A DNA stretch of 64,000 bases from positions 496,001 to 560,000 of the forward strand of contig NZ_CP091138.1 in NCBI RefSeq assembly GCF_021582875.1, given 5' to 3'. The notes under the pieces are model-generated. The model saw only the letters and a program-made list of their open reading frames with translations. It made no database searches and was not told where the DNA came from. Each line of letters starts with the position of its first letter. Position 1 is the first letter of the stretch. Shown here piece after piece: positions 37,023 through 56,110 of the stretch. The position numbers were made by a program, and so were the translations under genes. The stretch is from Microbacterium sp. KUDC0406. GTDB taxonomy: Bacteria > Actinomycetota > Actinomycetes > Actinomycetales > Microbacteriaceae.

Positions 37023-39433
37023 TCAGTCCTCGATGCGGATCTCGGCGACCGACTTGTCCGGCCGCAGGCCCCGCCAGCGGGCGTGGCGCAGGATGCCGCC
37101 CGGCGTCCAGTTGCCGAACTCCACCTCGCCCACGAGTTCCGGACGGACCCAGAGCGCGTCCGAAGCCTCCGGGGCGGGCACCTCGACCGGCGCAGTGCGT
37201 ACGCGCAGCGGCGTGAGCCTGGCGTGCAGGTCGCGCAGCATCCGGTCGGTGAATCCCGTGCCGACGCGGCCGGCATAGCGCAATCGCTGGGTTCCTGAGC
37301 CTGTCGAAGGGTCCGGCACGGCGAGTAGCAGTGAGCCGAACGTGCCCGCCCGATCTCCGTGGCCCGGCCTCATGCCGATGATCGCCGCCTCCTGGGTGCG
37401 GGTGAGCTTCAGCTTGAGCCAGGCGGACGAGCGCCGTCCCGGGCGGTAGAGCGAATCCGGGTCTTTGGCGACCACCCCCTCCAGCCCGTGCTCCTGGCTG
37501 GTCGCCAGCGCGTCGTCCACGTCGTCGAAGACGGGCGTCACCTGCACCGGGGCGTCGAGGCCCTCGGCGAGCTGCTCGAGCAGCTCGCGGCGCTGCCGCA
37601 GCGGCACGCCGGTGAGGTCGTGACCGTTCAGGCGCAGCAGGTCGAACAGCAGGTAGACCACCGGCGTGCGCACCACCTCGCGCTCGATCTCGCGGGCCTT
37701 CGTGAGATGCATCCGGTCCTGGAGCCGGCTGAAACTCGGATGGCCCGCAGCGTCGAAGGCGACGATCTCACCGTCCACGACTGCGTCCTCGGCCGGCAGA
37801 TGCGGCGCGCCGTCCGCGGTGAGCTCGGGGTAGCGGGCAGTGATGTCGGTGCCGCTGCGGGCGTGCAGCCGCATGCGTTCCCCTGACCAGGTGCCCAGCG
37901 CACGGATGCCGTCCCACTTGATCTCGGCCCAGCCGCGTGCGCGCGCCATGCCCGGCGTGCCGTTCTCGGCGAGCATGGGCCGCGGGGCATCCGTCGTGGC
38001 ATCCTCGCTCGGCAGAGGAGCAGGGCGCGCGGGCGGCGGATGCCGGTGCGCTCCGCCCTCCTTCATCCGGTGCAGCAGCCACTGTGACTTCTCGCCCTCC
38101 CCGGAGGTGCGGATCAGCGCGAGCCGCACGGTGCCGAGGCGTCCGCCCGGTCGCCCGGTGAATGTGCCGATGACCTCGTCGTCACGCCACTTCTCCAGGT
38201 CGACCGTGCCGGTGTCCCAGATCGTCATGCCACCGGCGCCGTACTCCCCGTGCGGAATGGTGCCCTCGAACGTGAGGTACTCGAGGGGATGAGGCTCGGT
38301 CATCACCGCCAGGTGGTTGCGTGCGGGCGTCTCCGGAACGCCCTTCGGCACCGCCCAGCTGATCAGCACCCCGTCGCGTTCGATGCGCAGGTCGTGATGC
38401 AGGCTGCTGGCGTGGTGCTCCTGGATCACGAAGCGCGTCAGGGGGATCCGCCGGCGGCGGATCCGGGCATGGGCTCGGGGGTCTTCGCCGCATCGCGCTT
38501 GGCGAGGTAGGGCGCGAGCGCAGTGGGGATCGGCGCGAGGGCGGCGAACGGATCGATCCCGGCCTCCACCCTGGCGAGCACCTCGTCGAACTCGAGCTGG
38601 GCGAGGTCTGGGTCGTCCAGCTCCTCCCAGGAACGCGGCGCCGCCACCCATGGCCGTGCCCGGCCGCGCAGCGAGTACGGCGCGATCGTCGTCTTGGACG
38701 CGTTGTTCTGGCTCCAGTCGATGAAGACCTTTCCGGGGCGCAGCGCCTTCGACATCACGCTGGTCGCGAGATCGGGATGTTCGGCCTCGATCGTGCGCGC
38801 CAGCTCCTTCGCGACCGCGGAGATCTGATCGCTGGTCTGCGCGCCGGTGCCGTCGTCGTCGACGGGCAGCGCGGCGTAGAGGTGGATGCCCTTGCTGCCG
38901 CTGGTCACCGGCACCGGGTCCAGGCCCATGCCGGTGAGGATGCCGCGTGCGCTGCGTGCGATCTCGGCGCACTCCGCGAGGCCCGCTCCCGGGCCGGGAT
39001 CGAGATCGAGCACGAGCCGGTCGGGGCGCCCGCGTCCGCCGGAGGAGGTGAACCGCCACTGCGGCACGTGCAGCTCGAGGGCCGCGACCTGCGCCAGCCA
39101 GACCAGCGTCGGCACGTCCTCGGCCAGCGGATACTCCTTGGTGCCCTCGGAGTGCTCGATCGGCATCCGCCGGATCCATTCCGGTGCGCCCTGTTCCAGC
39201 TGCTTCGTGAAGAAGGACGACTCCGGGGCATCCGCCGTTCCCACGCCCTCTACCCAGCGCTTGCGGGTGACCGGCCGTCCGCGCAGATGCGGCAGCATCA
39301 CGGGGGCGACCCGGGTGACGTAGTCGATGATCTCGCCCTTGGTGGTGCCGGTGGACGGATAGACGATCTTGTCGAGGTTGGTGATGCGCAGACGGCGGCC
39401 GTCGATCTGCACGACCTGCCCGCCCGAAGCCAT
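37023..39433 (-). CDS. ligD: LigD-type ATP-dependent DNA ligase with polymerase and phosphoesterase domains (apparent frameshift)
   Basis: Two frames together make one protein of about 800 residues. From ATG 39433: polymerase/primase domain (VLDLDPGPGAGLAECAEIA, TSGSKGIHLYAALP) to EPMPGSAAGGSP. Then, after a shift at GGGGG 38442-38446 on the plus strand (one base missing): 3'-phosphoesterase (RFVIQEHHASSLHHDLRIERDG, GTIPHGEYGAGGMTIWD) and ligase with the adenylated lysine in EIKWDGIRALG. The order POL-PE-LIG matches LigD. It repairs double-strand breaks with Ku, encoded divergently. Oddity: DPSTGSGTQ in the ligase part is coded by a copy of the dispersed repeat (37290-37312). Confidence 0.88.
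37290..37312. repeat. Dispersed STGSG repeat inside ligD
   Basis: GGTTCCTGAGCCTGTCGAAGG, a close variant of the CCCTGAGCCTGTCGAAGGG family, is inserted in frame in the OB-fold part of the ligase domain and codes DPSTGSGTQ on the minus strand, between LLLAVP and RLRYAGRV. Confidence 0.85.
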
Positions 39434-41094: not shown

Positions 41095-41420
41095 GAGAGG
41101 CTCCCGTCGAATGGCGGTGGAACGGGCATGCGGGAATGACGAGAGAACGGCACCCCTGCCCGCGTTCCAGCATAGGGGCGCGAGGTGCTGCGCAGCCTGT
41201 GACTCTGCCTGATTCGATGCGGGGTGACGCGTGTTGTGCGGAAGGTGGGACTCGAGTCCCTCCGGCGCCCTCCACCCGCCGCAACCCGTCGAAAAGGTCG
41301 CTTTGCGCGAATCGGGCGGCGCGCGGAGCCTCCGCGCCGGTGGGGCCCGGTTGTCCAAGGGGCCTGACTTCCGCGCTTTCGGGCCCGAGACCGGACCTCC
41401 GGCCCGGCCTCGGCCCGAAG
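41095..41420. other. Gene-free stretch between dedA and tRNA-Leu
   Basis: Apart from the 20-base tRNA copy at 41236, I see no gene here. The frames are Arg/Ser-rich and unlike any family. It includes the palindrome-rich segment after 41251 (GGGACTCGAGTCCC, a perfect 14-base palindrome at 41247-41260). The dedA promoter must lie in its left part. Confidence 0.6.
41236..41255. repeat. 20-bp copy of the tRNA-Leu 3' end
   Basis: GTGCGGAAGGTGGGACTCGA here is identical to 41420-41439, which covers the 3' acceptor arm and half of the T arm of tRNA-Leu (minus strand). The two copies are 184 bases apart in the same orientation. No other part of a tRNA can be folded around the left copy. It may be a vestige of an attachment site or of a lost tRNA gene. 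Confidence 0.7.
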
Positions 41421-41502
41421 TGCGGAAGGTGGGACTCGAACCCACACGCCCGAAGGCACAGGAACCTAAATCCTGCGTGTCTACCGATTTCACCACTCCC
41501 GC
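41421..41502 (-). tRNA. tRNA-Leu (anticodon UAG)
   Basis: On the minus strand the acceptor stem GCGGGAG pairs with CTTCCGC, followed by discriminator A and no encoded CCA. The D region is TGGTGAAATCGGTAGACACGC, the anticodon stem CAGGA/TCCTG holds the loop TTTAGGT with anticodon TAG, a long variable arm TGCCTTCGGGCGT follows, and the T arm is GTGGGTTCGAGTCCCAC. The long variable arm and the GGT...AGAC D loop are typical of leucine tRNAs. It reads CUA (and CUN) codons. Confidence 0.95.
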
Positions 41503-41582: not shown

Positions 41583-42725
41583 GTGAGTCATCCGTCCGTC
41601 GTCGTCGCCGAGCGCGTCAGGCGGCGACTGCGCCTGGAGAACACCGATCCGTCCACCGCTCCCGAAGAGGCTCGGCGCATCGCGCAGGCCGAGGTCCGGC
41701 GGCACAACGACCGGGCGCTCGCCCGCGGCGAGATGTTCATCGACGACGAACCGGCCCTGGTGCGCGACGTGCTGGCATCCGTGTCCGGCTTCGGACCGCT
41801 GCAGCCGCTGCTCGACGATCCCGAGATCGAGGAGATCCTCATCAACGCGCCGGACCGGATCTTCGTGATCCGCGACGGCGAGAAGACCCGCCTCGATCTG
41901 CGCCTCACCGATGCGATCGTGCGCGATCTCGTCGAGCGGATGCTGCATTCGACAGGGCGCCGGGTCGACATCAGCCAGCCGTTCGTCGATGCCTCCCTTC
42001 CGGACGGATCACGACTGCACGTCGCCATCGCGGACGTCGTCCGCGGCTCGTGGGCGGTGAACATCCGCAAGTTCCTTCCGCAGCATCGCACTCTGGACTC
42101 ACTGGTGGCAGGCGGATCCCTGCCGCCCGATGTCGGACGGATGCTGCGCGCGGCTGTCTCCGAGGGGCGGAGCATCATCGTGTCGGGGGCCACGCACGCC
42201 GGCAAGACGACCCTGCTCGGCGCGCTGCTGGCATCCTGCGCCGACGAGCAGCGCATCGTCACGGTCGAGGAGACCTTCGAGCTCGCCGTCGAGGGGCCCG
42301 ACGTCGTCGCGTTGCAGGGCCGGCAGGCCAGCCTCGAGGGCAGCGGCGAGATCACCCTCCGCAGGCTGGTCAAGGAAGCGCTCCGCATGCGGCCGGAGCG
42401 GCTCGTCGTCGGTGAGGTGCGCGATGCCGAGGCCCTCGATCTCGTGCTCGCGCTGAACACCGGCGTCCCCGCCGCGGGAACGATCCATGCGAACTCGGCG
42501 ACGGAAGCGCTCGACAAGCTCTGCCTGCTTCCCCTGCTGGCGGGGCGCAACATCGACCGCGCGTTCATCGCGCCGGCGCTCGCCGCGTCCGTGTCCCTCG
42601 TCGTGCACGTCGTCCGCGAGCCGGACGGGCGGCGCAGGGTCACCGAGATCCTCGCACCGACCGGTGAGGTCGCCGGCGGACGCATCCTCACCCGTCCCGT
42701 CTACCGGGCGGAGGCGCTCTCATGA
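41583..42725 (+). CDS. tadA: Tad/Flp pilus assembly ATPase (CpaF/TadA)
   Basis: 380 residues from a GTG start. It has the secretion-ATPase layout: N-terminal domain, then Walker A SGATHAGKTTLL (the usual GxxGxGKT is GATHAGKT here), Asp box TVEETFELAV, Walker B RPERLVVGEVRDAEALDLV and His box AGTIHANSA. It powers assembly of Flp pili from the inner side of the membrane. The stop and tadB start overlap (ATGA at 42722). First gene of the Tad locus here; no TadZ/CpaE-like gene lies upstream in the window. Confidence 0.92.
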   Translation: MSHPSVVVAERVRRRLRLENTDPSTAPEEARRIAQAEVRRHNDRALARGEMFIDDEPALVRDVLASVSGFGPLQPLLDDPEIEEILINAPDRIFVIRDGEKTRLDLRLTDAIVRDLVERMLHSTGRRVDISQPFVDASLPDGSRLHVAIADVVRGSWAVNIRKFLPQHRTLDSLVAGGSLPPDVGRMLRAAVSEGRSIIVSGATHAGKTTLLGALLASCADEQRIVTVEETFELAVEGPDVVALQGRQASLEGSGEITLRRLVKEALRMRPERLVVGEVRDAEALDLVLALNTGVPAAGTIHANSATEALDKLCLLPLLAGRNIDRAFIAPALAASVSLVVHVVREPDGRRRVTEILAPTGEVAGGRILTRPVYRAEALS

Positions 42726-43580
42726 CGCTGCTTCTCGGCGGGATGCTCGCCGCCGGACTCGTGCTCGTGGCGTCGCCCTGGCTCTGGCCCGGCGGTGCGC
42801 GGGCCGAGCGCCCGGCACGGGATGGCGCGCTCACTCGCCTGCTCGGGGAGTCCGGGCACGGACGCACCTCGCCGAGCACACTGATCGCCGTGATGGTCGC
42901 GGCCGCGCTCGGAGCGGCCGCGATCGCCTGGCTGCTCACATCGCTGCCCGTGCTCGGCGTGCTCGCCGCGCTCGCGGGCGCCGCCGCGCCGGTGCTCTAT
43001 CTCCGCGGACGGCGGCTGCGTCTGCGCAAAGCGCGCAGGCAGCTGTGGCCCGACGTCTGCGACCTGCTCGTCGCGGCGATCCGGGTCGGGCTCTCCCTAC
43101 CAGACGCGGTCGCCTCGCTGGCCGACAGCGCACCGCAGGCGGTGCGTCCCGCGTTCGCCGTGTTCGCCAGGGATCTGCGTGCGACGGGCCGCTTCGAGAC
43201 CAGTCTGGATCGGCTGAAGGCGACCCTGGCCGACCCGATCGCCGATCGCATCGTCGAGACCCTGCGCATGGCGCGTCAGGTCGGCGGCACGGAGCTCACC
43301 GGCGTGCTGCGCGCACTGTCGTCGTCGGTGCGCGCCGACGCCGCGCTGCGCGGCGAGGTCGAGGCGCGGCAGTCCTGGATCCGACGGGGCCGCCGTGCTC
43401 GGCAGCATCGCCCCGTGGGTGATCCTGGCGCTGCTCGCCATGCGCCCCGAGGGCGCGCGAGCCTACTCGACGCCAGAGGGTGTGCTCGTGATCTGCGTGG
43501 GGGCGGCCGTGTCGGTGGTGGCGTACCGGGTCATGCTGCGCATCGGCCGCCTTCCCGAGCCGGGGCGGTGGTTCGGATGA
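42722..43580 (+). CDS. tadB: Flp pilus assembly protein TadB (apparent frameshift)
   Basis: Membrane platform protein of the T2SF family. It opens MTLLLGGMLAAGLVLVASPWLWPGG, has further helices around VAAALGAAAIAWLL, and the T2SF core (LLVAAIRVGLSLPDAVASLAD, RQVGGTELTGVLRALSSSVRAD). After QSWIR the frame shifts at GGGG 43386-43389 (one extra base, or two missing) and continues VLGSIAPWVILALLAMRPEGARAYSTPEG to the stop at 43580. The restored protein has about 285 residues. As written the frame runs on into tadC and would fuse the two, which is not credible. Its end overlaps the tadC start. Confidence 0.85.
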
Positions 43581-44514
43581 GCGCCGTCACCGACGCCGCG
43601 ATCGCGGTGCTGCTCGGCGGTGCCCTCGGTGCGGGCCTGATCTCGATCCTCTTCGCGCTCCCGCGCTGGCGCGCACTCCCGCTCGATCGGCGCATCGCCC
43701 CGTACGTGCGCGACGTCGTCCCCGATGAGCTGCTCCCCGCCGGGGTGCTGCCCAGTTCCGGGCTGCTCCCGGTGAGTGGACGCCGGCTGCGCGATCGACT
43801 GCAGACGGGCTTCGAACGGATGCTGGGCGGTGGCGACGCACTGCGGCAGCGGCTGTCCCAGGCGGGCAGTGCTCAGGAGCCGTCGACCTTCCGCGCCCGC
43901 CAGCTCGGCTGGGCACTCGCCGGTCTCCTCGCCGGTTCGGTCGCGGTCGTCGCGCTCGCGATGTCGGGACGTCTCAGCGTGCCGACCGCGCTGCTGCCGG
44001 TCATCGGCGCCGCCGTCGGCTCGATCGGATACGACGCCCAGCTGACCGCGCGCGCGAAGGCTCGCCGGGCGCGGCTCGCCGATGAGCTGCCCACCATGCT
44101 GGAGTTCCTCGCGCTGTGCCTGGCCGCGGGGAGTCGCTGCCCGACGCCCTGAAGCGGGTGTCCGCCATCGGCACCGGAGAGCTCACCGAGGAGCTGCGCA
44201 GGGTCGTGCTGGCCGTGAACACCGGCTCACCGCTCGCCGACGCGCTCGCCGAGATGTCTGGACGCCTGCAGCTTCCGGCGCTCAGCCGCGCGGTGGACCA
44301 GCTGACTGCGGCCCTGGAGCACGGTGCCCCGCTGGCCGGGGTGCTCCAGGCCCAGGCGGGCGATGCCCGCGAGGAGGCCAAACGCGTGCTCATCGAGCAG
44401 GCCGGCCGGAAGGAGATCCTCATGCTCCTTCCCCTCGTGTTCCTCATCCTGCCGCTCTCGGTGCTGTTCGCGATCTATCCGGGGATGTTCATACTGCGGC
44501 TCGGCCTCGGCTGA
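43577..44514 (+). CDS. tadC: Flp pilus assembly protein TadC (apparent frameshift)
   Basis: Second T2SF-domain membrane protein: MSAVTDAAIAVLLGGALGAGLISILF helix, then RRARLADELPTMLEFLALCLAAG. One G is missing in GGGG 44128-44131, so the frame stops early at 44152; with it restored the protein continues ESLPDALKRVSAIGTGELTEELRRVV and ends with the helices ILMLLPLVFLILPLSVLFAIYPGMFIL at 44514, about 312 residues. With TadB it forms the inner-membrane base on which TadA acts. An interrupted pilin gene follows. Confidence 0.86.
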
Positions 44515-44533
44515 GTCAGATCGGAGGAGACAC

Positions 44534-44656
44534 ATGACCACCATCAAGAGCTTGTTCCGCGGCGCACGCGAACTCGCCGCCGACGAGCGCGGCGATGTGC
44601 CGGGCTGGGTGCTCGTCACGTTGATGACGGCCGGCCTACCAGCCGTAACAGCCTGA
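44534..44656 (+). pseudogene. Flp-type pilin, 5' part (gene interrupted by the element)
   Basis: ATG 44534 with GGAGGAG upstream. It codes MTTIKSLFRGARELAADERGDVPGWVLVTLMTAGL, that is a basic leader, a short acidic region and the start of a hydrophobic segment, as in small Flp-like pilins between TadC and TadE. After position 44637 the sequence is that of the mobile element, which adds PAVTA and a stop. Joining base 44637 to 52587 restores an in-frame LVVLIWAVAGPALTNLFEQAMS continuation. The intact gene would code 62 residues. Confidence 0.8.
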
Positions 44657-44757
44657 GCCTATTTAGCCGGTATCGCCGCGTCGTTGCTGGGCTCGCGAGC
44701 CGCGCGCTTCGTCGTGTCGTGCGCGGGCCTGCGATCTATGTTGACGGGAAGGCTGTG

Positions 44758-45924
44758 CTACCGGTTGCCCTTCGCGCGATTGTGCGGGACGCACAGCATC
44801 TCGCAGTTGGCCAGATCAGTTGCGCCACCCTTCGACCACGCGGCGACGTGATCGGCATCCATTTCGGCGCGAGCGTAGATGCGAGCCTTGTTGGCGTTGT
44901 TCCCGACGGCGCACAGCGGGCAGTTCGAAGCACCGGCTGCCTTAGCCTTTGCGGTCTGCTGCGTGTAGGCGAGATTCTTCGTCTTCTCGTCGAACAGGCG
45001 GATGTCGAGCAATTGCGGTTCTTTCTCGCCACCGAGCAGATACTCGTAAATGCCCTTTCGGCTGTTGACGCCAGGGTCTCCCCGCAGCTCCTCAAGCCGA
45101 GCCTCCATCTTCGAGGCGCTGTACGACTGCGAATGAAAGCGCTCGTACATCGCGCCCCAGTCGAGACCGCGCATCTCCTTGTCCGGCGGACGAATGAACA
45201 CACTCCCGACCCAATCGATGACGGACGTGAAGTAGGTTCGGAGGCCGTTGATATCAGCATCCAAGCGATGCGCGCCGAGGTAGCCATCTACGGTCTTGGC
45301 TTCGGATGAAGCGACCCAGTCCAAGGCTTCGGCGAGGATGTCCTGACGCTTGGGATCACCCGAGATGTACGACTGCCACTTCTGCATGTTGGCGTTGTGC
45401 GAGTTGCTGTACTCCGCCTTGGCCTTCGTGACGAACGGGCCAGAGTAGATGGCGTTCAGCAGCTCTTGCTTGTTCAGCGGGACACCGGCGATGTTGATCG
45501 TCTGGAACCACTGCTTGATCTCGTCTTCGTCGCCGTCGCACTCGTAGATGTCGAGCTTCGTGTCCAGAATCTTCTGCTGCAGGTTCTTCGGGAGTGACGA
45601 GAAGGTTTGCTCCTTGCCATCGACCTTGATGGCGAACTTGCCGGTGACGAAGCGACCCACGCTCGTGATGCGCTGCTGGCCGTCGAGCACTTCGAGTGTC
45701 GGGCCTTCGACGTTGAAATAGATCAGCCCGAGCGGATAGCCCTTGAGCAGCGAGTCGATGACCGCCGCATCGCGCTTACCGTCGTTGTAGATGTAGTTGC
45801 GCTGGTACTCGGGCTGAATGACCAGCTTGCCGTCGAGGCCAAACAGGCCCTTGCCTTCGAGCTCGTTGTAGACGAAGCCCTTGAGCACCTCGCCGACCGT
45901 GTAATGCTGAAGCTCGGTCTTCAC
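44758..45924 (-). CDS. DUF262 + HNH endonuclease protein
   Basis: 388 residues, GTG start overlapping the methyltransferase stop (45921-45924). The N-terminal DUF262 (GmrS/SspE-type) domain shows PEYQRNY at 38-44 and the diagnostic [11 protein letters not shown] at 79-89; in related proteins this motif binds or hydrolyses nucleotide. The C-terminal HNH nuclease has CPLC 335-338, DADHVAAW with the catalytic DH at 358-359, N373, LC 377-378 and HNRAKG near the end, so it looks complete. Likely an NTP-dependent DNA nuclease. The tight pairing with an adenine methyltransferase suggests restriction or defence; specificity is unknown. Confidence 0.85.
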
Positions 45925-47117
45925 TGGTCGACCTTTCGGTGGCGAATGAACAGACGCTGGTACATGCAGTGCGCCGCACCATCGTCATCCGTCAAGTACG
46001 CGATCTGTACCCGCCACGTCCGGTCGTTGGCGCGATGCTTGGCTTGGACTTCAGTCGAAGGTGGTGTGAAGAAGCCGCACTCGTCGGACTGTGCCCATTC
46101 GAGATGGTGACTGCGCCCCAATATCTCAAACTGGTCGGGGTTGTACTTGTCAAGAAAAGTGATGGGGACGCCCATCACGCCCTCGTAATCACTGGGGATC
46201 GAGTCCGTGTATGAGACTTCGATCGCGTCGTAATTCTCGTACTTTCGGTACTCGCCACCCTTCAAGTCCTTATGCCGGCTGAACCGCAGGTTGTCGGCGA
46301 CCGTCATCATCTGCATGGGCTCGTGACGCCGACCGTGGTCGATGTTCGTGAACCAGCATGAGTTGCCCAGACGCGTGAAGTCGTAATCGTCGGTGGGCGG
46401 ATATCCCAAGCGCTCAGCTTTGCGCCTGTCGGCCTCGCTGACTTGTGCACCCTTCGGCACCCCGAACACCATGTCGGTTGTGTTCCCCGTCGCGCCTTTC
46501 CACAGCTCATTGCCCTGAAGCCTCGGGAAGATCTCCCTGTAGGTCACTGCGTTGTTGTTGCCGATAACGGAGAACTTCTTTCCTCCGGCGAACAGCCAAT
46601 TGACGAACTCGCGGAACAGACTGAACGGCGGGTTGGTGATCACGACATCCGCCTCATCGCGCAGAGCGGTGACTTCGGCGCTCAGAAAGTCGCCGTTCCC
46701 GTCGAGGTACTCCCACTGGAGGTCGTCGATGTTGATCACGCCGTCTCCGGAGATGTCGTCGGACTCCAGAACAAACTTCTTGCCGTTCAGCCGCGTCTTC
46801 GTCGCGTCGAACTTCGGGTCTGCGGTCTCGAACAAGGTGGGCGCATAGAACTGGCCGGCCGGGTTGCTGTCCGGCGCGAAGGAAGTTGAGATCAGCTTCT
46901 TCAGTCCGAAATCTACGAAGTGGAGCGCGAAGTACTTCGCGAAGTTGCTCCACTCGGGGTCGTCGCACGGGAGCAGAACGATCTTGTCCCGGAACACATC
47001 GGGGTCGAACTCCAAGTAGGCGTTCATCTCGCGCTCGATGTCCGCCCACTGCGTGTAGAACTCATCGTTCTTCGCGCTCTTCGCCGCCGACAGATTGCTG
47101 TTCGCTGCGATCGTCAT
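45921..47117 (-). CDS. EcoRI-family adenine-specific DNA methyltransferase
   Basis: 398 residues from ATG 47117 ([30 protein letters not shown]). The early KNDEFYTQ and the segment [16 protein letters not shown] (about 48-63) are hallmarks of the M.EcoRI family, and [18 protein letters not shown] contains the N6-adenine catalytic NPPF (162-165). It methylates adenine in duplex DNA using SAM. It sits first in a two-gene leftward unit: the DUF262/HNH gene begins inside its stop. The target need not be GAATTC. No classic EcoRI endonuclease is adjacent, which makes the partner gene the candidate nuclease. Confidence 0.88.
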
Positions 47118-47222
47118 CGTCCTCGCCCTTCCGTTCTGCCGCCGAGAACGGGGCCCGCTCCACATGGTAGCGGCGAGCTCGGACAGTGTCGCGCACCGAG
47201 ACCCGAGGTGTGTCCGAATCGC

Positions 47223-48101
47223 CTACAGTGTCACTCCGACGAGCCGCGCGACCTGCTGTCGGAGCGAGTCGCGGTCGCCCGCGTGGTTCCACGCCGTGCC
47301 GTCGCTCCGACCGCGAGCCTGCGACCACGGGCGGATGCCGTCGAGGTCGAGCGTGCCGGGGACACGACGGCGGATGGCGCGGTCGGGGTCGATGAAGGCC
47401 ACGAAGGCGTCGTACCAGCCGCCGCCGTCGCGCTTGGTGATCCAGCACGTCACGCAGAGCCCGTCCCCGGGCCATGCCTCGCTCTTGCGGCGTCCGTGTG
47501 CGCTCGTCGTGCCGCACCATGCGCATGGTCCGCCGTCGAGAGCGCGGCTCGGGCGCATGTCAACGCTCACGTCCACGAGGCCGCGCTGGCAGTCGCGGAT
47601 GACGAACGGATCGACAGCCGACCAGCGTTCGCGTGCTGACTGCTTGGTCGTCGCGTCGGGGAGCCAGGTGGGTGAGAAGCGGCGCGAGTACGCGGCGAGA
47701 GCGCCTGGGATGCTGAGACGGTGCACGAGCGCCGACAGCTGTGGGCCGCTCACGCTCGCGTCCGGGATCGGCGCGCCGAGCGCGGACAGCGCGTAGAGCG
47801 CGCACTGGACACGCCAGGTCGCGACCGACCCGAGGGAGGCCCGAAGGTGGCGATGCACCGTGGCGATGCTCTGGGCGGTGCTGTCGAGCGCGCGGCAGTC
47901 GTCGCACGTCGGGAGGCTCGTGCTCGCGCCGTCCTGCATGGTTTCACTCCGCTCACCGCCAGGGGTCGCGTGGAGGCGGCTGAGCACCGGGTAGTCGGTC
48001 AGGTGCTCGGGCGCTGTGGCGATGCCGCAGACGGCGCACGGCAGGAGTCCTTCGGGTGTCGCTCGGAGCCCGATGGGCGAAAGGTCACTGGTCATGGGCA
48101 T
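47223..48101 (-). CDS. Hypothetical zinc-finger-like protein of the element
   Basis: 292 residues. Cysteine pairs are spaced as in zinc ribbons: CAVC (22-25), CDDC (66-69), CAWC (193-196) and CVTC (216-219). The middle part (SIATVHRHLRASLGSVATWRVQCALYALSALGAPI) is helical. No family recognised. It may bind DNA or act in control of replication. It overlaps the end of the preceding gene in the leftward chain. An ATG two codons later is an equal start candidate. Confidence 0.65.
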   Translation of the reverse strand: MPMTSDLSPIGLRATPEGLLPCAVCGIATAPEHLTDYPVLSRLHATPGGERSETMQDGASTSLPTCDDCRALDSTAQSIATVHRHLRASLGSVATWRVQCALYALSALGAPIPDASVSGPQLSALVHRLSIPGALAAYSRRFSPTWLPDATTKQSARERWSAVDPFVIRDCQRGLVDVSVDMRPSRALDGGPCAWCGTTSAHGRRKSEAWPGDGLCVTCWITKRDGGGWYDAFVAFIDPDRAIRRRVPGTLDLDGIRPWSQARGRSDGTAWNHAGDRDSLRQQVARLVGVTL

Positions 48102-48381
48102 GGGGTTCCTCCTCGACGGCCACGGAGTAGAACGAGGCCGGGTTCTCGTAGCGCCAACGACGTGATCGTGGCGGCTCTGGTGCCGGTGCCGCTGGTGCGG
48201 GCTCCGGTCGGATGGTGTGTTCAGCGGCGACGAGCACGGGGGTGGCGCGGGTTTCAGCAGCGCGAATGCGGGCGGCGCGCTGACGCTCGGCCTCGGCGGC
48301 TTCGGCTCGTTGTCGCTCTTGGGCGGCGGCGAGGTCGCGACGTATGTTCTCGGTCTGCCAGGACTCGCCCGGATACTTCAT
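48085..48381 (-). CDS. Small helical protein of the element
   Basis: 98 residues. Residues 8-47 are a strongly charged helix (IRRDLAAAQERQRAEAAEAERQRAARIRAAE), likely a coiled coil, followed by a Pro/Ala-rich linker and a basic RSRRWRYENPASFY stretch. Function unknown. The start overlaps the stop of the preceding gene (ATGA at 48378-48381). Confidence 0.6.
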   Translation of the reverse strand: MKYPGESWQTENIRRDLAAAQERQRAEAAEAERQRAARIRAAETRATPVLVAAEHTIRPEPAPAAPAPEPPRSRRWRYENPASFYSVAVEEEPHAHDQ

Positions 48382-48710
48382 GGGACGATTCCGATGTTCA
48401 TCCGCCTGGTGATGCGGTCGCCGCAGACGCCGTGCGCACCTCGGAAGCAGTAGGCACCCGGCTGGGCATCGTGCACGGTGCAGGCGATTGCCAGCGTCCC
48501 AGGCATGACAGCATCACGGGCGATCTGCGATGCCACGAGCGCGACGACGGCGGGGTCAGCGACCGGGTGGTCGTCCCACACGTCGCGGTCGTCGCGGCGG
48601 GACTCGCGGGTGCGGAACTCCCGATCCATCACCCTGTCGGCCGTCTCGGGATCGAGGCCACCGTGCTGGGCTGATCGGATGCGATGAGAATCATCAATGC
48701 GGTGTGTCAT
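48378..48710 (-). CDS. Small hypothetical protein of the element
   Basis: 110 residues from ATG 48710, chosen because it overlaps the upstream stop (ATGA), the rule in this cluster. The N-terminal half is rich in Asp/Arg, and the C-terminal IACTVHDAQPGAYCFRGAHGVCGDRI has three cysteines and two histidines in a compact stretch, like small zinc-binding proteins of actinophages. Unknown role. Confidence 0.6.
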   Translation of the reverse strand: MTHRIDDSHRIRSAQHGGLDPETADRVMDREFRTRESRRDDRDVWDDHPVADPAVVALVASQIARDAVMPGTLAIACTVHDAQPGAYCFRGAHGVCGDRITRRMNIGIVP

Positions 48711-49006
48711 GTCGGGCTCCACTCGAACTCGGGATGCTGGTCGGGGATCGCGGCGAGGAGGTCAGCGCGTCGTGCCTGCTCCATCCGCGTGATGTCGGAT
48801 CGGTACGGAGCCAGTCGGCGGGTGCGTTCAGCAGCGGCGGCGAGCGGATCGACGGGCGCGGGCTCCGGGTGGTCGCTGAGTGCGTCGAGGCGAGCGCGAG
48901 CGCTAGCGGCACGAGCACGGGCCACGGCGGCGGCGTCGGCACGCTTGCGGCGCTCGGTGGACTCGCGCATGCCGCGCAGGATCGCGGCCTTGCTCATGGC
49001 GGTCAT
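48707..49006 (-). CDS. Small helical protein of the element
   Basis: 99 residues, Ala/Arg-rich and mostly helical (MSKAAILRGMRESTERRKRADAAAVARARA), with a second helical part DITRMEQARRADLLAAIPDQHP. No recognisable family. The start overlaps the stop of the HTH gene upstream in the chain. Confidence 0.55.
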   Translation of the reverse strand: MTAMSKAAILRGMRESTERRKRADAAAVARARAASARARLDALSDHPEPAPVDPLAAAAERTRRLAPYRSDITRMEQARRADLLAAIPDQHPEFEWSPT

Positions 49007-49410
49007 CGTCGTTCCCCGCTCATGGTGGCGACGAGGCGGTCGAACTCGGCTTCGAAACGCTCGCGGTATTCGACGGTCACGAGGGTGATGTCCTGCTGAG
49101 TGTCAAGGCCCATGAGCCTCGCACGGCGAGCGCTGAGCCGGATCAGCGTGTCGATGGCTCGTGCGTTGCCCGATAGCGCCTGAGGCCACAGAGCCGCCTG
49201 CATCGCGTCGAGGCGTGCGGACTCGATCTGCCGCAAGCTGTCCACGGCCTCGACGGTGTTCGCGGCCAGCGCCTCCATGACGAGCTGGTGGGCGCGTCCG
49301 ACGCTCACATCGAGTTGGCGAGCGATGGAGCGGTACGGCGCGCCAGCCTCGCGGAGGCGGACGGCGAGCGCTCGGTTCTCAGCGATGCGGGTGCGGTCAC
49401 GAGTGCTCAT
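49003..49410 (-). CDS. HTH protein, similar to phage terminase small subunit or helix-turn-helix regulators
   Basis: 135 residues. The helix-turn-helix LREAGAPYRSIARQLDVSVGRAHQLVMEAL lies at residues 20-49. A helical middle (ESARLDAMQAALWPQALSGNARAIDTLIRLSARRARLMGLD) follows and looks like the dimerisation part of terminase small subunits or small DNA-binding phage proteins. It could bind the element's origin, or packaging sites of a helper phage if the element is a satellite. Confidence 0.7.
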   Translation of the reverse strand: MSTRDRTRIAENRALAVRLREAGAPYRSIARQLDVSVGRAHQLVMEALAANTVEAVDSLRQIESARLDAMQAALWPQALSGNARAIDTLIRLSARRARLMGLDTQQDITLVTVEYRERFEAEFDRLVATMSGERR

Positions 49411-49651
49411 GTTCAGTCCCCTGGTTCAGCAGAATCGGCCTGAACGGTGCCGGAGTCTGCCCGCCGAACGCGTTGCGGCGGTGCTCTTGCGCCATGGCGA
49501 TGAGCGTGGCCCGCAGGCTCTCTGTGGTCGCGTTCGGGTCGGGCTTGACACCCTCGGGCAGCCCCCGGCGCTTCATCGCCAACAGGATGCCGATGAGGAC
49601 CTCGCGGCGTGCGCGATCCAGCGGGTCAGTGGGTGGAGTGGGTCGGGGCAT
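49397..49651 (-). CDS. Small hypothetical protein of the element
   Basis: 84 residues with a helical core LDRARREVLIGILLAMKRRGLPEG and a second helix ESLRATLIAMAQEHRRNAFGG. Unknown. Overlaps its neighbours in the leftward chain on both sides (the HTH gene starts inside it). Confidence 0.55.
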   Translation of the reverse strand: MPRPTPPTDPLDRARREVLIGILLAMKRRGLPEGVKPDPNATTESLRATLIAMAQEHRRNAFGGQTPAPFRPILLNQGTEHEHS

Positions 49652-49736
49652 GGCTCTCCTCGGGCATGTCGAACAGCGCAGGCAGCTTGAGATGTGGTGC
49701 CGCCCGTACCTGACGACGCGGTTTTGAGCGCCTCAT
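49626..49736 (-). CDS. 36-residue basic peptide of the element
   Basis: ATG 49736 overlaps the stop of the zinc-finger-like gene upstream (ATGA), and the end overlaps the next gene. It codes a short basic peptide (MRRSKPRRQVRAAPHLKLPAL then an acidic/His tail). Reading as a gene rests on its position in the overlapping chain; it is too short for other evidence. Confidence 0.45.
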   Translation of the reverse strand: MRRSKPRRQVRAAPHLKLPALFDMPEESHAPTHSTH

Positions 49737-50017
49737 GTCCACTCCTCGGGCACGTGGCTGAAGTCGCACGACGGATGGACAGTGAAGCCCTCCGCGATGA
49801 CTGCGGGGTGCAACGGCAGACGACATACTGCGCACGGACGGGCGCTCGCCGGATCGGCACCGAGCGCGAGATACCAGCACGTGACGCAGATCAGGCACAC
49901 ACCCTCAGGCGTGGTCTCCTCGTCGTGCTCAGCACAGCGGGCGGCAGGAGCTCCGGTCGAGAGGTCTAGCACCCACAGGTACGGCTGACCGGGGACGCGG
50001 GTAGGCCAGAGCATCAT
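49733..50017 (-). CDS. Small zinc-ribbon-like protein of the element
   Basis: 94 residues with cysteine pairs CLICVTC (41-47) and PCAVC (61-65), then HPSC at 81-84, a double zinc-ribbon or LIM-like spacing. Similar CAVC/CxxC proteins are common among small actinophage genes. Unknown role. The start overlaps the stop of the replication-like gene. Confidence 0.6.
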   Translation of the reverse strand: MMLWPTRVPGQPYLWVLDLSTGAPAARCAEHDEETTPEGVCLICVTCWYLALGADPASARPCAVCRLPLHPAVIAEGFTVHPSCDFSHVPEEWT

Positions 50018-50544
50018 CGCGGCGCTCCCCAGTTGCTCCGAACCGCGTCAACGACGGCAACACTTGGTGCGAGGACGTCGTTTTTCTCGCTCTCGACTCT
50101 TGGCCCTGCCTTAGCTGGTTTGGTTTGGTCTTGTCTTATTTCCGGGGTACGCGCTACTGACGCATCACTAACGCCGTTAGCCGCCTGAGCCTCCGCTTTG
50201 AGGTTGGCCTGGAACTTGCGCTGACGTTCTCGGCCCTGCTTGCGGGTTCGCTCCATCTGCGCCTTCGTTGTCTGCGTCTCGGCCCAATCCACGATCTGGA
50301 AGCCGGTGGCGGTCGTCGTCCACACCGCGTTCTCGATCAGACCCGCCACGACTTCATCGAGCGCGCAGTCCGCCGGCAGGAGCAGACGTAGCGCTTTCGT
50401 TGGGATGAGCCCGTCCGTCTCGTGCTCGATGCCGAACATGAGAGCTCGGGCGTGAGTGGCGAACTCGCACGCGGAAAGGTCTGCCATCGTGGGGTCGGTG
50501 AGCCAGCGAGTCGGCAAGCTCGCGTTCCACCCGCGCTTGCTCAT
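50014..50544 (-). CDS. Phage-type replication initiation (replisome organiser-like) protein
   Basis: 176 residues from ATG 50544 (MSKRGWNASLPTRWLTDPTMADLS), overlapping the upstream stop. The layout resembles actinophage replication proteins: an N-terminal winged-helix-like region (LTDPTMADLSACEFATHARALMFGIEHETDGLIPTKALRLLLP then DEVVAGLIENAVWTTTATGFQIVDWAETQTTKAQMERTRKQGRERQRKF) and a disordered, charged tail. It would bind an origin and load host helicase. The family is inferred from this pattern only. Confidence 0.65.
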   Translation of the reverse strand: MSKRGWNASLPTRWLTDPTMADLSACEFATHARALMFGIEHETDGLIPTKALRLLLPADCALDEVVAGLIENAVWTTTATGFQIVDWAETQTTKAQMERTRKQGRERQRKFQANLKAEAQAANGVSDASVARTPEIRQDQTKPAKAGPRVESEKNDVLAPSVAVVDAVRSNWGAPR

Positions 50545-50750
50545 GCCACGCGCCTCAGCATGGCGGCGAGGCGTTCGCACTGCTCGTCTGTGAGCGGGGG
50601 AGCCTCAGCCAGCGCGCGCTCGATGGCCGCAGCGATGTTCGCGGCGGCGAGGTCGGCGCGACGCTCGGCGATAACTCCGGGCGGGCTCTTGCGCTGGTAG
50701 GCGTGGCCCAGATCGGAGCGGGCCTTGCGTGGTGTCGGGAACGAGTCCAA
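50541..50750 (-). CDS. First small gene of the element's leftward operon
   Basis: 69 residues from TTG 50750 with AAGGA about 9 bases upstream. It is rich in helices (VIAERRADLAAANIAAAIERALAEAPPLTDEQCERLAAMLRRVA); the end is a typical helical dimer motif. Similar C-termini (LTDEQCERLAALLR) are common in small phage proteins next to replication genes. Unknown role. First of ten overlapping genes. Confidence 0.6.
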   Translation of the reverse strand: MDSFPTPRKARSDLGHAYQRKSPPGVIAERRADLAAANIAAAIERALAEAPPLTDEQCERLAAMLRRVA

Positions 50751-51087
50751 CTGGTAGATCCTTCAACGAAAGCGCTGGTGCCCGAGCGCGAGCCGGGACT
50801 GCCTTTCGTTGGGGGTGTTCAGTTGGTATTCACTTGTTGGGACGTGTGCCTGACGGCTCAAGCGTAAGCATGCGAGCCACCAGCACGCAAGGGGAGATTT
50901 CACTCATGACCTGGGGTTGTTGTACATCTCACGTGTACAAGCGAGGCGAATCTGCGCGCTCATCGGCTCATTCACCGGCACGATTGGCGCGAGCGGCCCC
51001 ACGTGCCGCGCTGGGCCGCGATCAGCAGCAGTTCCGTGTCGTCGGGTCGATTCGCGGGGTCAGCGCCTCAGCGGGGCGCACAGCGAC
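50751..51087. promoter_or_regulatory. Control region between the recombinase gene and the small-gene operon
   Basis: No convincing gene. Two inverted repeats stand out: CAACGAAAG (50764-50772) with CTTTCGTTG (50803-50811), directly upstream of the operon start, and TTGTACA (50920-50926) with TGTACAA (50934-50940), a 21-base operator-like palindrome with a 7-base centre. Both are AT-richer than the surroundings. The leftward operon promoter and regulator binding sites should lie here. The restored recombinase gene ends at its right edge (51088). Confidence 0.55.
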
Positions 51088-52550
51088 TTACGTCCAGGCG
51101 AGCACGATGCGCCGGAGATCGGGCAGGCGCTCGCCGTCTGGGCCGAGCGCACGGCGTCCGGGACGGCCCTTGGTGATCGTGATGACGAGCCCCAGTTCTT
51201 CGATGACGCGCCGTTGCCCGAGCACGCCCAACCGCTTCCACTTCGTCGGCACCGCACGGGCCAGCGCGATGTCGGTGAGGGGGACTTGCGGCGCATCGTG
51301 GTCAAGCGCTTCTGCGCGGCATCGATCTTCGCCTGGAGCCCTTGTGCGCGCTCGCGGGCGGCGCTCTTGTTCAACAGGCCGTCAGCGACGAGGCCGACGA
51401 GGGTGGCCTCGCGGTCGCGGAGTTCTTTGAGCTCAGCCTGGACGGGTGCGATGTCGGGGGTCTGGCGTAGGGCTGAGACGATGCGCCGATCCTGGAGCCG
51501 CCCGAGCACTACGCCCTCGATGTACGGCTCCACGTCGCGCGCGAGGATCGAGACGCACCAGTTGGTCGTGCACTGGTACGACTGCTGGGTGCGCCGCGAG
51601 CCGTCCGGGTTCTTCCGGTACTCGGGCCGTGCGAGCATGCGGCCACCGCACACGCCGCAGACGAGCATGCCGCTCAGGAGGTGCTTCGTGGCCGTTGACC
51701 ACGAGCCCGGGCGCGTGCGGCCCTCGCGCGTCGCGATGTAGTCGTCCCAGGTGCGAGCGTCGATCAGAGGCTCCCACGTCGGCTCAGCCTCGACGCGCTC
51801 GCCCAGGTAGGTGACGTGACCGGCGTAGTGCGAGTTGCGGAGCAACTGCTGAACGCGGCGCATCGACCAGACGGTGCGCTCGCCCTCGGGTGCGTTCGTG
51901 TCGTGCGTCGGGATGCCGCGCGCGTTCCAATCGTTGGCGATGGCGTACTGGCTCTCGCCGTCGATGTAGCGCCGGTAGCCCTCGCGCACGATGTCGGCCT
52001 CGTCGGGGACGACGACGATGGAGCCGTTCACGCGGTCATAACCGAACGGGCGGCGGGAGAACTGCCAGTGGCCCTTGTGCGCGCGTTGCTCGTTCGCCTC
52101 CCACTGCCGGATCGCCTTCTGCTCGCCTTCGTACTGGCTCCACGCGGCGACTGTGCGAGCGACAGCGCGACCGGCTGGCGTCGCGAGGTCGAGCCCGCCC
52201 TTGTACGACTCCACGAAGTGCACGTCGATGCCGAGGTCGATGACCTTCTCCAGGTCGCTCGTGAGGCGTAGGAGGCGGTCTTGATGCCACGCGATGATGA
52301 CCTCGGGCCTCGACGCGATCATGGCCTCGAACTCGGGCCGCGTCTTGCCGCTCGTGGCGCTGATGTCGTTGTCCACGTAGACGTGCGTCACCTCCAGCCC
52401 GAGGCGCGCGGCGAGCGCGCGGCACTTCGGCTCCTGGCGCTCCACGCCCAGCATCTCGCCCGTGCGGTCTTGCGAGATGCGGCAGTAGATCACCGCCGTC
52501 TCGGGGCCGAGAGTGTCCAGTGCGCTGAGCCGTCTACGTCGTGTCGCCAT
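51088..52550 (-). CDS. Large serine recombinase (integrase), apparent frameshift near the C-terminus
   Basis: About 487 residues if restored. Resolvase domain with catalytic serine S26 in IYCRISQDRTG, then the recombinase domain (RRPFGYDR...VREGYRRYIDGESQYAIANDWNARGIPT, RRVQQLLRNSHYAGHV), a zinc ribbon (LVCGVCGGRM ... YQCTTNWC) and a coiled coil (QAELKELRDREATLVGLVADGLL). After KRLTT the written frame goes Ser/Arg-rich; one added base near 51296-51301 gives DAPQVPLTDIALARAVPTKWKRLGVLGQRRVIEELGL and a natural end at 51088. It catalyses integration in the pilin gene; the start is 35 bases from the right end, the usual place. Confidence 0.88.
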
Positions 52551-52585
52551 GCTCGCATAATACGCTCATGGCGTTATGAGCGGGT

Positions 52586-52671
52586 TGGTCGTCCTGATCT
52601 GGGCCGTCGCCGGCCCGGCGCTCACGAACCTCTTCGAGCAGGCGATGTCCAGCGTCTCGGGCATCGGCTGA
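52586..52671 (+). pseudogene. Flp-type pilin, 3' part
   Basis: Codes the rest of the pilin: (L)VVLIWAVAGPALTNLFEQAMSSVSGIG followed by TGA. It continues exactly in frame from the left fragment once the element is removed. It has no start of its own with a ribosome site in the pilin frame; the ATG in 52576-52578 lies inside the element end and is not supported. Confidence 0.8.
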
Positions 52672-52677
52672 GCACAC

Positions 52678-53082
52678 GTGCGGACGCAGGAGCGGTCGCC
52701 GGCGGACGAGCGCGGGTCGAGTCCCGTCGAGTTCGTGCTCGTCGGTGCGCTGCTGACCGCGCTGACGCTCGCCGTCCTGCAGCTGGGTTTCGCCGTGTAC
52801 GTGCGCAACGTCGTGCATGACGCGGCCGTCGAGGGCGCGCACTACGCCGCACTCGCCGACACCTCGCTTCGCGCGGGAGCGGCGCGCACGGAACAGGTGA
52901 TCGCGCGGGCGGTCGGCACCGGCTTCGCGGAGGACGTCGCGGTCGGCGAGAGCGGACGCCTCGGGCATCCGACCGTCGTCGTGCGCGTGCGCGCCACCCT
53001 GCCGGTGATCGGCCTGATCGGCATCCCGTACGCGATGGAGGTGGAAGCGCATGCGCCGGTGGAGACCCTGGGCGACGGATGA
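52678..53082 (+). CDS. TadE-like pilus minor pilin
   Basis: 134 residues, GTG start six bases after the pilin stop. After a short charged head (ERSPADERGSSPVEFVLVGALLTALTLAVLQLGFAVYVRN) comes the single N-terminal membrane helix and then an extracytoplasmic domain, the TadE family plan. It belongs to the Tad operon and would be exported and processed with the pilin. Its stop overlaps the next gene by 32 bases. Confidence 0.85.
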   Translation: MRTQERSPADERGSSPVEFVLVGALLTALTLAVLQLGFAVYVRNVVHDAAVEGAHYAALADTSLRAGAARTEQVIARAVGTGFAEDVAVGESGRLGHPTVVVRVRATLPVIGLIGIPYAMEVEAHAPVETLGDG

Positions 53083-53500
53083 TGAGGGATCGGCAGCCCT
53101 CGAGTTCATCACCGCGGGCATCCTGCTGCTCGTCCCGCTGGTGTACCTGGTGATCGCCCTGGGCTCCGTGCAGGAGCAGACGCTCGGCGCGGAGGCGGCA
53201 GCCAGGCACACAGCACGCGCCATCGGCCAGGCACCCGACTCCTCGGCGGCCACGGCGCGCGCCGATGCGGTGCTGGCCAGCGTACGGGAGGAGTACGGCA
53301 TGGACGACGTCGACGTCGCGCTGAACTGCGTGCCGGCGGGCGGCCCCTGTCCCCGCGCCGGGGCGACCGTCGTCGTGACGGTGTCGACGCGTCTGACCCT
53401 GCCGTTCATGCCGCCGATCGCCGGGCTCGACGAGATCACGGCGATTCCCATCGAGGCGTCGGCCGCTCAGAAGACCTCCCGGCTGTGGGGTGCGCAGTGA
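53051..53500 (+). CDS. TadF/TadE-like pseudopilin
   Basis: 149 residues. The N-terminus RRWRPWATDDEGSAALEFITAGILLLVPLVYLVIALGSVQEQTLG has the acidic-glycine-S-x-x-E(F) TadE processing-site pattern followed by a membrane helix. The remainder is a soluble exported domain with one disulfide-like Cys pair (CVPAGGPC). Pilus minor subunit or anchor. Ends in an ATGA-type (GTGA) overlap with the next gene. Confidence 0.82.
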   Translation: MRRWRPWATDDEGSAALEFITAGILLLVPLVYLVIALGSVQEQTLGAEAAARHTARAIGQAPDSSAATARADAVLASVREEYGMDDVDVALNCVPAGGPCPRAGATVVVTVSTRLTLPFMPPIAGLDEITAIPIEASAAQKTSRLWGAQ

Positions 53501-53934
53501 GCCGCACGGCCTGCATCCGCCGCGCCCTCGCCGAAGACGAGGACGGCAGCATCCTCCCGCTCATCCTGGGCTACACGCTGCTCGCGATCGCCGTGCTCTT
53601 CGTCTGCGTCTGCGCGACCGACTTGTACATCGCGCAGAAGCGACTCGACGCTCTCGCCGACGCCGCCGCGCTCGCCGGTGCCGACGGCTTCAGCCTGACC
53701 GCCGAGGGCGATGGTGTGCGTGCGGAACTGACGGACGATCTCATCCGCGAGCAGGCCGCGGCGATCGTCGCGGCGACGGCGCCGGATGCCGCACTCGTGT
53801 CGGCCTCCAGCCCGGACGGGGTCTCGGCTCGCGTCACGGTGGCTGCGGCGTGGCATCCGCCACTGTTCTCGCCTTTCGTCCCCGACGGTGTCCCCCTGGA
53901 GGCGACGGCGACGAGCCGCACGGCTCTGCAGTGA
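53497..53934 (+). CDS. TadG-like pilus protein
   Basis: 145 residues from a GTG inside the preceding stop. It has the head DEDGSILPLILGYTLLAIAVLFVCVCATDLYIAQKRLDALADAAALAGADG, a typical TadG N-terminal helix followed by the ALADAAALAGA motif of the family. Shorter than full TadG, so the tail domain is missing, as in many actinobacterial Tad loci. Probably anchors the pilus at the membrane. Last gene of the locus. Confidence 0.82.
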   Translation: MSRTACIRRALAEDEDGSILPLILGYTLLAIAVLFVCVCATDLYIAQKRLDALADAAALAGADGFSLTAEGDGVRAELTDDLIREQAAAIVAATAPDAALVSASSPDGVSARVTVAAAWHPPLFSPFVPDGVPLEATATSRTALQ

Positions 53935-55212: not shown

Positions 55213-55248
55213 GCTACTGCCGTCGCGAGCCCCCGATCACACGAACTC

Positions 55249-56052
55249 TCAGCAGCGCTCGAGCAGGTAGCCCTTCTCGCCGGGGGCGACGAGCAGGCGA
55301 TCGCGCAGCACCGTGCGCTCGGGGAGGATGCCCGCGGCGCAGGTGCCGGGGAAGTCGCCCTGTGTGTCCGGATACTCGATGTCGATCACGTTCTCGCCGT
55401 AGACGTCGGCGTAGGCGGAGCACTCCTCGAAGGCCGCGCACTCCTCGGCGATCGCGAAGTCGAATCCGGCCTCCTCGCGCATCCGAGACGAGTGCTCGGC
55501 GGCGTTCTTCTGCCCGGCCAGCAGTCCCGCATCGTGCGCCACGCCGACCAGTGTCGTCGCCGTCTGCACCGCCGCGTCGGCGTCGAACGCCCCGCCCGAA
55601 CGGGTGAAGCTGTCGAGGTTGTCCAGCTCCACGGCGTCGAATCCGCGCTCGCCGCAGCCCCGGATCCAGCCGCCGACGTGTTCGACGACGAGGTGCCGTG
55701 CACCGGCGTCGCCGAGGTCGAGGAGGACTTCGTCCGGCCAGTCCGGATCACGCACGGTCTCTCCATCGGACCGCAGCAGAGTATCGGCCGGCCAGTCCCC
55801 GAGCTCGCCGGGCTGGGTCTGGAAGGCGTTGATGTAGCAGATCGAGAACGTGTCGGGTTCCGGAGGGGCAAGTCGGTCTCTGGCGACGATCGCCGTGCCC
55901 GACGGCGCGTCGTACGGTGTGCCGAGCTGGTAGTCGACGCCGCCAGCAGGCAGAAGATCCGTCGGTGCGGCCGACGTGCACCCGGCCAGGGCGACCGCCA
56001 CGGCCAGCAGCGCCGCGCAGCTGAGCCGGGCACGGACCGTAGGGGAGCACAC
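55249..56052 (-). CDS. Lipoprotein with GH114-like endo-alpha-1,4-polygalactosaminidase domain
   Basis: 267 residues from GTG 56052. The N-terminus ends in a lipobox LAGC (about residue 25), so it is a lipoprotein on the outer face of the membrane. The enzyme part has VDYQLGTPYDAP, FSICYINAFQTQPG, GFDAVELDNLDSF (the acidic catalytic pair typical of GH114) and AEECAAFEECSAY. The family cleaves galactosamine polymers in biofilms or cell walls. Substrate in this organism is unknown. Confidence 0.85.
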   Translation of the reverse strand: MCSPTVRARLSCAALLAVAVALAGCTSAAPTDLLPAGGVDYQLGTPYDAPSGTAIVARDRLAPPEPDTFSICYINAFQTQPGELGDWPADTLLRSDGETVRDPDWPDEVLLDLGDAGARHLVVEHVGGWIRGCGERGFDAVELDNLDSFTRSGGAFDADAAVQTATTLVGVAHDAGLLAGQKNAAEHSSRMREEAGFDFAIAEECAAFEECSAYADVYGENVIDIEYPDTQGDFPGTCAAGILPERTVLRDRLLVAPGEKGYLLERC

Positions 56053-56110
56053 GGTTCAGACTAACCGCGCAGATCGGCGGAGCACCGCGCGGCGGTAGGC
56101 TGGTGGGACC

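Follow-up and report, generated by a model that had tools for sequence, protein, structure and literature searches.

An integrative element splits a pilin-like gene of the tad locus in Microbacterium sp. KUDC0406, and elements with large serine recombinases recur in genes linked to DNA uptake

The tad (pilus) locus of Microbacterium sp. KUDC0406 contains an integrative element that cuts a small pilin-like gene in two, and one can ask what such an element would gain from this site. The window analysed here is the whole 64,000-nucleotide stretch (positions 496,001 to 560,000 of contig NZ_CP091138.1), which lies within a complete 3.61-Mb chromosome (completeness 96.12%); coordinates below refer to this window. 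A sequence-only reading of it had proposed that the two halves of an Flp pilin gene lie at the ends of a 7.95-kb element, that excision would restore the pilin and turn pili on and off, and that loss of the pilus would in addition deprive phages of a receptor. We show that the insertion is real and precise, and that several groups of large serine recombinases (LSRs) have brought elements into several genes of one pathway.

The split gene and the element inside it

A 62-codon gene located between tadC and tadE is cut by an element of 7,949 bp (44,636 to 52,584), whose G+C content is 0.655, compared with 0.722 in the tad flanks. The 5′ half of the gene (44,534 to 44,635, plus strand) encodes residues 1–34 and the 3′ half (52,585 to 52,671, plus strand) encodes residues 35–62 and the stop codon. 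As it stands, the left piece is an open frame of 40 residues (44,534 to 44,656), of which the first 34 or 35 belong to the pilin-like protein, depending on the side to which the crossover Leu codon is assigned, and the others, with the stop, are encoded by the element. The right piece starts from an ATG at 52,576, and two element-encoded residues and a Gly precede pilin residues 35–62. When the flanks are joined at the Leu codon (44,636–44,638 on the left, 52,585–52,587 on the right), 62 residues are read in frame and zero bases are lost. The sizes (35 and 27 residues), the in-frame junction and the element length of the sequence-only reading were therefore correct.

The same reading expected an intact gene of about 62 residues in related strains. 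Such a gene, uninterrupted and 62 amino acids long, is present in three close relatives (G061, G245 and G320), from which the joined halves differ by 14–17 synonymous and 8 non-synonymous codon changes. Among the first 22 genus relatives searched, all 17 matching genomes read straight through the junction. Chance or an annotation artefact was rejected as an explanation, as relatives carry the whole gene at the same place, and a unique event was rejected, as the split gene recurs in other genomes of the genus. The name “pilin” (and flp, used below) should be read as putative, resting on the position and size of the gene and on a hydrophobic stretch read by eye. To this extent the proposed Flp identity stands, but for the whole gene of the relatives neither Pfam (up to E 5) nor NCBIfam (up to E 1) gave a match to a pilin model, and the fifth position of its GDVPGW motif is W, not E.

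All predicted genes of the element described here are on the minus strand. A type II endonuclease with GmrSD_N and HNH domains (44,758 to 45,924; PF03235, PF01844; PADLOC REase_II, 1.3e-88) adjoins an EcoRI-type adenine methyltransferase (45,921 to 47,165; PF13651, 4.3e-113; PADLOC MTase_II, 2.2e-82). Being adjacent and of known families, they are predicted to form a type II restriction-modification pair, and the defence module that had been suspected in the element is thus recovered by both Pfam and PADLOC. Further along lie an open reading frame (ORF) without a PHROG match (47,223 to 48,101), related to ORFs in the same-site elements of genomes G218 and G326; a small protein with helix-turn-helix-like matches (49,003 to 49,410; PF13384, 8.8e-5, below its cut-off; phrog_645, 8.6e-25); a replication-initiator-like protein (50,014 to 50,580; phrog_2447, 1.7e-13); and a 69-amino-acid ORF (50,541 to 50,750). 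The 496-residue protein next to the right junction (51,060 to 52,550; phrog_95 integrase, 5.5e-92) has the domain set of an LSR, with Resolvase (PF00239) and Recombinase (PF07508) above their cut-offs and the zinc-ribbon (PF13408) at 24.0 bits against a cut-off of 25 (E 5e-5).

No capsid or terminase match was found among the ten element proteins scanned against PHROGs; together with the integrase and initiator-like genes, this may point to a phage satellite of the phage-inducible chromosomal island (PICI) kind, which would be mobilised by a helper phage. Named relatives of the recombinase are largely from Microbacterium. In sister elements at the same codon the recombinase is kept (58–73% identity) and the other cargo differs: a DnaB-like helicase is found in G201, an AAA_25/Toprim protein in G040, and FRG-domain and DUF4145 proteins with defence-type matches in G341. 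Judged by gene content, these may be mobile elements of a satellite-like kind whose cargo can be exchanged. A scan of genome contigs gave one distant, irrelevant match and a scan of viral contigs none, while phage records yielded only relatives of the recombinase below 60% identity (1,072 of 1,072 records, and 624 of 624 in a second search).

The junctions were compared with those of six other elements at the same site. The left one (attL, 44,636 to 44,666) consists of the Leu codon and an element arm with TAAC, and the right one (attR, 52,555 to 52,587) of an arm with GTTA followed by the Leu codon, so that the arms show a rough GTTA/TAAC symmetry by eye. Six of the seven elements have the same first two Leu-codon bases on both sides; in the window the left codon is CTA and the right one TTG. 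As can be seen from all seven, which belong to one clade, LMTAG-Leu on the left and Leu-VV on the right rejoin in frame to LMTAG-LVV.

Precise rejoining would be compatible with a reversible switch, in which the pilin is regained by regulated excision whenever pili are required, as with the A118-type prophage in comK. The 69-amino-acid ORF near the recombinase, which has relatives in all six other same-site elements, could be the directionality factor of such a switch. However, conservative site-specific integration at a codon already present should give in-frame rejoining anyway, and a restriction-modification pair would tend to punish loss of its element. The state of the host locus also speaks against a clean switch in this strain. 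The locus spans 41,583 to 53,934 on the plus strand, with genes in the order tadA, B, C, E, F and a TadE/G-like gene. The pilus ATPase gene tadA (41,583 to 42,725; PF00437, 2.4e-44; TIGR03819, TadA-family ATPase) is a single frame when compared with relatives, but tadB (42,722 to 43,580) carries a +1 frameshift near 43,384 and tadC (43,568 to 44,514) a −1 frameshift near 44,127, both relative to G061, G245 and G320. To the right of the element follow tadE (52,678 to 53,082; PF07811, 3.3e-10), a tadF-like gene assigned by a weak PF07811 match (0.013) and by relatives (53,051 to 53,500), and the TadE/G-like gene (53,485 to 53,934; PF13400, 2.5e-5). Thus, the rest of the locus is present, as had been stated, but two of its genes are not intact. 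The frameshifts are possibly assembly errors, since completeness is 96% and a neighbouring long frame also shows a net frame change near 38,440, where conservation is poor; if they are real, decay of the locus has set in, and pili would not be restored by excision alone. A reversible on/off switch, which the sequence-only reading put first, we therefore regard as improbable.

Recurrence in genes linked to DNA uptake

The survey set comprised 366 genomes of the window's genus, probably Microbacterium. The flp gene was matched in 315 of them and is split in 20. The flp matches listed (the best ones, down to E 8.9e-22) all span the junction without a stop, and 37 genomes with weak or multiple matches were re-searched. 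The splitting elements range from 7 to 51 kb and belong to at least six LSR groups; a recombinase adjoins an flp half in 18 of the 20 genomes, and none was seen at the flp break of G133 and G297, where the contigs break. The clade of the window (G000, G218, G341, G326, G201, G101 and G040) has elements of 7.0–9.4 kb. In G284 and G120 the elements are ca. 9 kb and their recombinases are ca. 23% identical to that of the window. The cut lies a few codons earlier in G192, G132 and G168, whose halves are ca. 33–51 kb apart, and in G141, whose halves are on different contigs; it lies near PGW in G324, G272, G349 and G373 (9–18 kb). The element of G319 is ca. 16 kb. Genomes with the right half alone (G196, G077, G080 and G289) or with short remnants (G220, G145, G261, G270 and G359) are outside the 20. 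In G196, G077 and G080 an N-terminal part of tadA and the right flp half are 9–15 kb apart, and the interval showed neither tadB nor tadC nor the bulk of tadA, as would result from recombination between two insertions. In other genera of the family, where 398 genomes were searched and 279 matched, nine (G389, G457, G514, G609, G616, G654, G677, G738 and G739) have at least two weak flp matches, as split genes give.

TadC was matched in 326 of the 366 genomes and is split near codon 290 in 25, after re-searching of 46 genomes with two matches or lower scores and opening of 28 loci. In 22 of these both parts are present, 7.7–15.7 kb apart, with a recombinase at one end; the other three (G343, at a contig break, G373 and G133) are probable. 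A 0.4-kb remnant in G019 and a locus without the C part in G066 were not counted among the 25. Counts for tadA and comM come from opened loci rather than from a genus-wide survey. TadA is cut beside a recombinase in three genomes: G021 and G078, in both of which only the C part was seen, and G115 (both parts, ca. 104 kb apart); it is also cut in G289, where no recombinase was found. Separately, G226 (L295) and G043 (L294) have recombinases beside TadA-like genes that are unlike the main tadA, possibly hits in a second tad cluster.

Insertions were also found in genes that do not encode the pilus. ComEC was matched in 360 of the 366 genomes, and among 23 that were re-searched it is split near residue 235 in 11. 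In nine of these the N part ends and the C part starts near this residue, the two being separated by 16–95 kb or located on different contigs, and the flanks that were opened contain a recombinase match in all nine (weak, 42–45 bits, in G107, G303 and G292); in G076 and G099 the C part has an adjacent recombinase. The 12 re-searched genomes not counted as split have low completeness (G106, G262 and G228), a fragmented assembly (G157), a frameshift-like change (G218), a contig end (G343), a match starting at residue 279 (G206) or intact copies (G002, G324, G085 and G000), the twelfth being G256. In G002 (L278) and G324 (L280) the intact comEC is accompanied by an extra N-terminal copy ca. 10 kb and ca. 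20 kb upstream, respectively, which perhaps reflects an element bringing a replacement 5′ end. In the window's strain, comEC is uninterrupted in the searched domain, inside a 789-residue open frame. The comM (YifB) gene is interrupted in G022, G011, G020 and G017, each of which has the two gene parts and a recombinase; G066, where a contig starts, is a probable fifth case. Pairs of recombinase matches 3–5 kb apart on opposite strands were observed in G017, G020, G042, G072 and G152, those of G017 and G020 being in the comM element.

Taken together, flp, tadC, comEC, tadA and comM are split by LSR elements in at least 56 different genomes of the 366. Integrase-bearing insertion by unrelated elements thus recurs in several genes of the pathway, with both parts of the gene kept in cases at flp, tadC, comEC and comM, and all five genes are linked to DNA uptake or transformation.

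This breadth bears on the proposal that loss of the pilus removes the receptor of pilus-dependent phages and so excludes superinfection, with the restriction-modification pair protecting the host as well. The restriction-modification genes, the defence-type matches of the sister element in G341 and the prophage size of several insertions are consistent with it. Yet ComEC and ComM are not surface structures, so that insertions in their genes would remove no surface receptor, and the pattern as a whole fits a loss of transformation better than the loss of a phage receptor. In addition, none of the titles listed by a literature search on Tad pili, phages, receptors and Actinobacteria reports a Tad-pilus phage in this group. 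As the main explanation of the site, receptor loss, the second advantage named in the sequence-only reading, is thereby weakened, and we hold it to be very improbable.

Chance, convenience or escape from transformation

How far the recurrence exceeds the general load of LSRs was estimated with a PF07508 search of 79 genus genomes, which gave 95 matches in 44 genomes. At least 18 of the 95 are at the five genes: four at flp (G000, G120, G272 and G319), five at tadC (G002, G075, G118, G285 and G120), three at tadA (G021, G078 and G115), one at comEC (G076) and five at comM (G011, G017, G020, G022 and G066). This is a minimum, as flanks were opened for 30 of these loci and for 17 from another, partly overlapping search, the remainder being judged by coordinates. 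The recombinases beside TadA-like genes in G226 and G043 and the one just upstream of tadA in G076 are not among the 18. The five genes make up ca. 6 kb of 3.5 Mb, so by our estimate uniform placement predicts ca. 0.2 matches, with the proviso that it is a crude null for site-specific enzymes and that related recombinases are not independent.

The recombinases at tad sites fall into eight groups at 40% identity over 250 residues. Six of them occur at flp: the clade of the window (together with many tadC recombinases), G284/G120, a prophage group (with the tadA recombinase of G078), G319/G324/G349 (with that of tadA in G021), G373 and G272. The G133/G373 group was assigned to tadC, the G133 recombinase being located between tadC and the left flp half. 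In a tree of 80 recombinases, target changes between tad and other sites number eight, at least six of them on well-supported branches; each change may stand for a gain or a loss, and some placements are uncertain because of long branches. Before the tree was built, 13 duplicate, very short or tad-duplicate background rows were dropped. It counts the G076 recombinase upstream of tadA as a tad row and labels as “other” several that are hits, namely L170 (G115) in tadA, L034, L043, L171, L040 and L041 in comM, and L174 in comEC, so that its change counts are a rough guide.

We consider it probable, by analogy with known competence-gene insertions, that the elements disable the competence apparatus of their hosts and so escape removal by transformation. 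An element that may be satellite-like has integrated, by means of its LSR, at a site inside a putative Tad pilus subunit gene and cut the gene in two; across the genus, unrelated LSR elements and prophages use sites inside tadA, tadC, flp, comEC and comM. These genes would supply the pilus ATPase, platform protein, pilin-like subunit, import pore and ComM of a machinery for importing and processing transforming DNA. If DNA is taken up by means of the Tad pilus in this genus, as in Micrococcus luteus, an element that blocks uptake would be safe from deletion by transformation (chromosomal curing), and integrases with such targets would be favoured. The restriction-modification pair would act as a second lock by punishing loss. 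That the Microbacteriaceae Tad pilus is a DNA-import pilus, and that conflict between transformation and mobile elements drove LSR sites into these five genes, is a proposal towards which we lean slightly.

Several observations weigh against escape from transformation, and part of them favour another account, in which conserved coding stretches serve as attachment sites that fit many hosts, dispensable genes tolerate insertion, and loss of uptake is a side effect. The insertion sites are in conserved coding stretches, and the flp site is the part of the gene most alike among relatives (GDVPGWVLVTLMTAGLVV). Seven genomes carry insertions in tadC as well as in flp, where 1.4 would be expected (P ~1e-4, or 3e-4 with 315 genomes as the base), which suggests relaxed selection, since a second hit would add nothing against curing. 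In the 79-genome sample, 77 of the 95 LSR matches were placed at none of the five genes, with flanks opened for part of them. The insertion counts cover these five genes, family models do not recognise the split gene as Flp, YifB/ComM may have other roles, and transformation in the genus is argued by analogy. Against convenience of the targets, five genes of one pathway are hit by many LSR groups, and dispensability alone predicts no common function; we judge this account rather unlikely.

Prophage disruption of competence genes is known from streptococci, Listeria and some proteobacteria; literature searches, at the level of titles and abstract beginnings, brought up no account of such insertions in the tad, comEC or comM genes of either Microbacterium or the Microbacteriaceae. 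If escape from transformation is the correct reading, the conflict between mobile elements and transformation would extend to a phylum with little-studied competence, to a different kind of pilus, and to comEC and comM. Transformation genes could then be recognised from a census of integrase insertion sites alone, even in a lineage for which competence has never been demonstrated. For Microbacterium, the prediction is natural transformation by way of the Tad pilus.

Two further features of the window flank the locus. A tRNA-Leu gene is predicted just upstream of tadA (41,420 to 41,502, minus strand, ARAGORN), and at ca. 55,224 to 56,083 a minus-strand frame that aligns to one long frame of G061 is interrupted by ca. 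860 bp.

Comparison with known systems

The recombinase resembles the R4 integrase group of Streptomyces phages, which are LSRs with ca. 40% identity over 80–83% of the protein, but the element here is 8 kb, with no capsid matches among the proteins scanned. Splitting of a short gene by a non-prophage element is described for the gin-type element in the 225-bp gerE gene of Bacillus cereus, which is reported to be removed during sporulation (PMC5595907), whereas no excision is known for the element in the window.

For the pilus, the closest parallel is M. luteus, whose transformation requires the tad genes and in which strains without Flp complexes had in every case lost transformability too (Angelov et al. 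2015, PMC4322843). Two tad clusters are needed there, and Flp has a G/XXXXEY site, unlike the gene studied here, which lacks that E.

For the insertions, the comparison with comK prophages made in the sequence-only reading proved a good lead. In the passages of Croucher et al. 2016 (PMC4774983), insertions in comYC, comK, comFA and comM are argued to escape removal by transformation, and a cassette in pneumococcal comEC is mentioned; Flp, Actinobacteria and Micrococcus have 0 occurrences in these passages. A 2025 paper (PMC12637031) ranks disruption of comYC fourth by frequency among pneumococcal prophage sites. Like the elements treated by Croucher et al., those described here bear integrases and use fixed sites in competence genes, which in the former case include a major pilin gene and comM and recur across species. 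They differ in belonging to an actinobacterial genus, in using serine recombinases, and in striking a Tad-type pilus (tadA, tadC and flp) together with comEC and comM.

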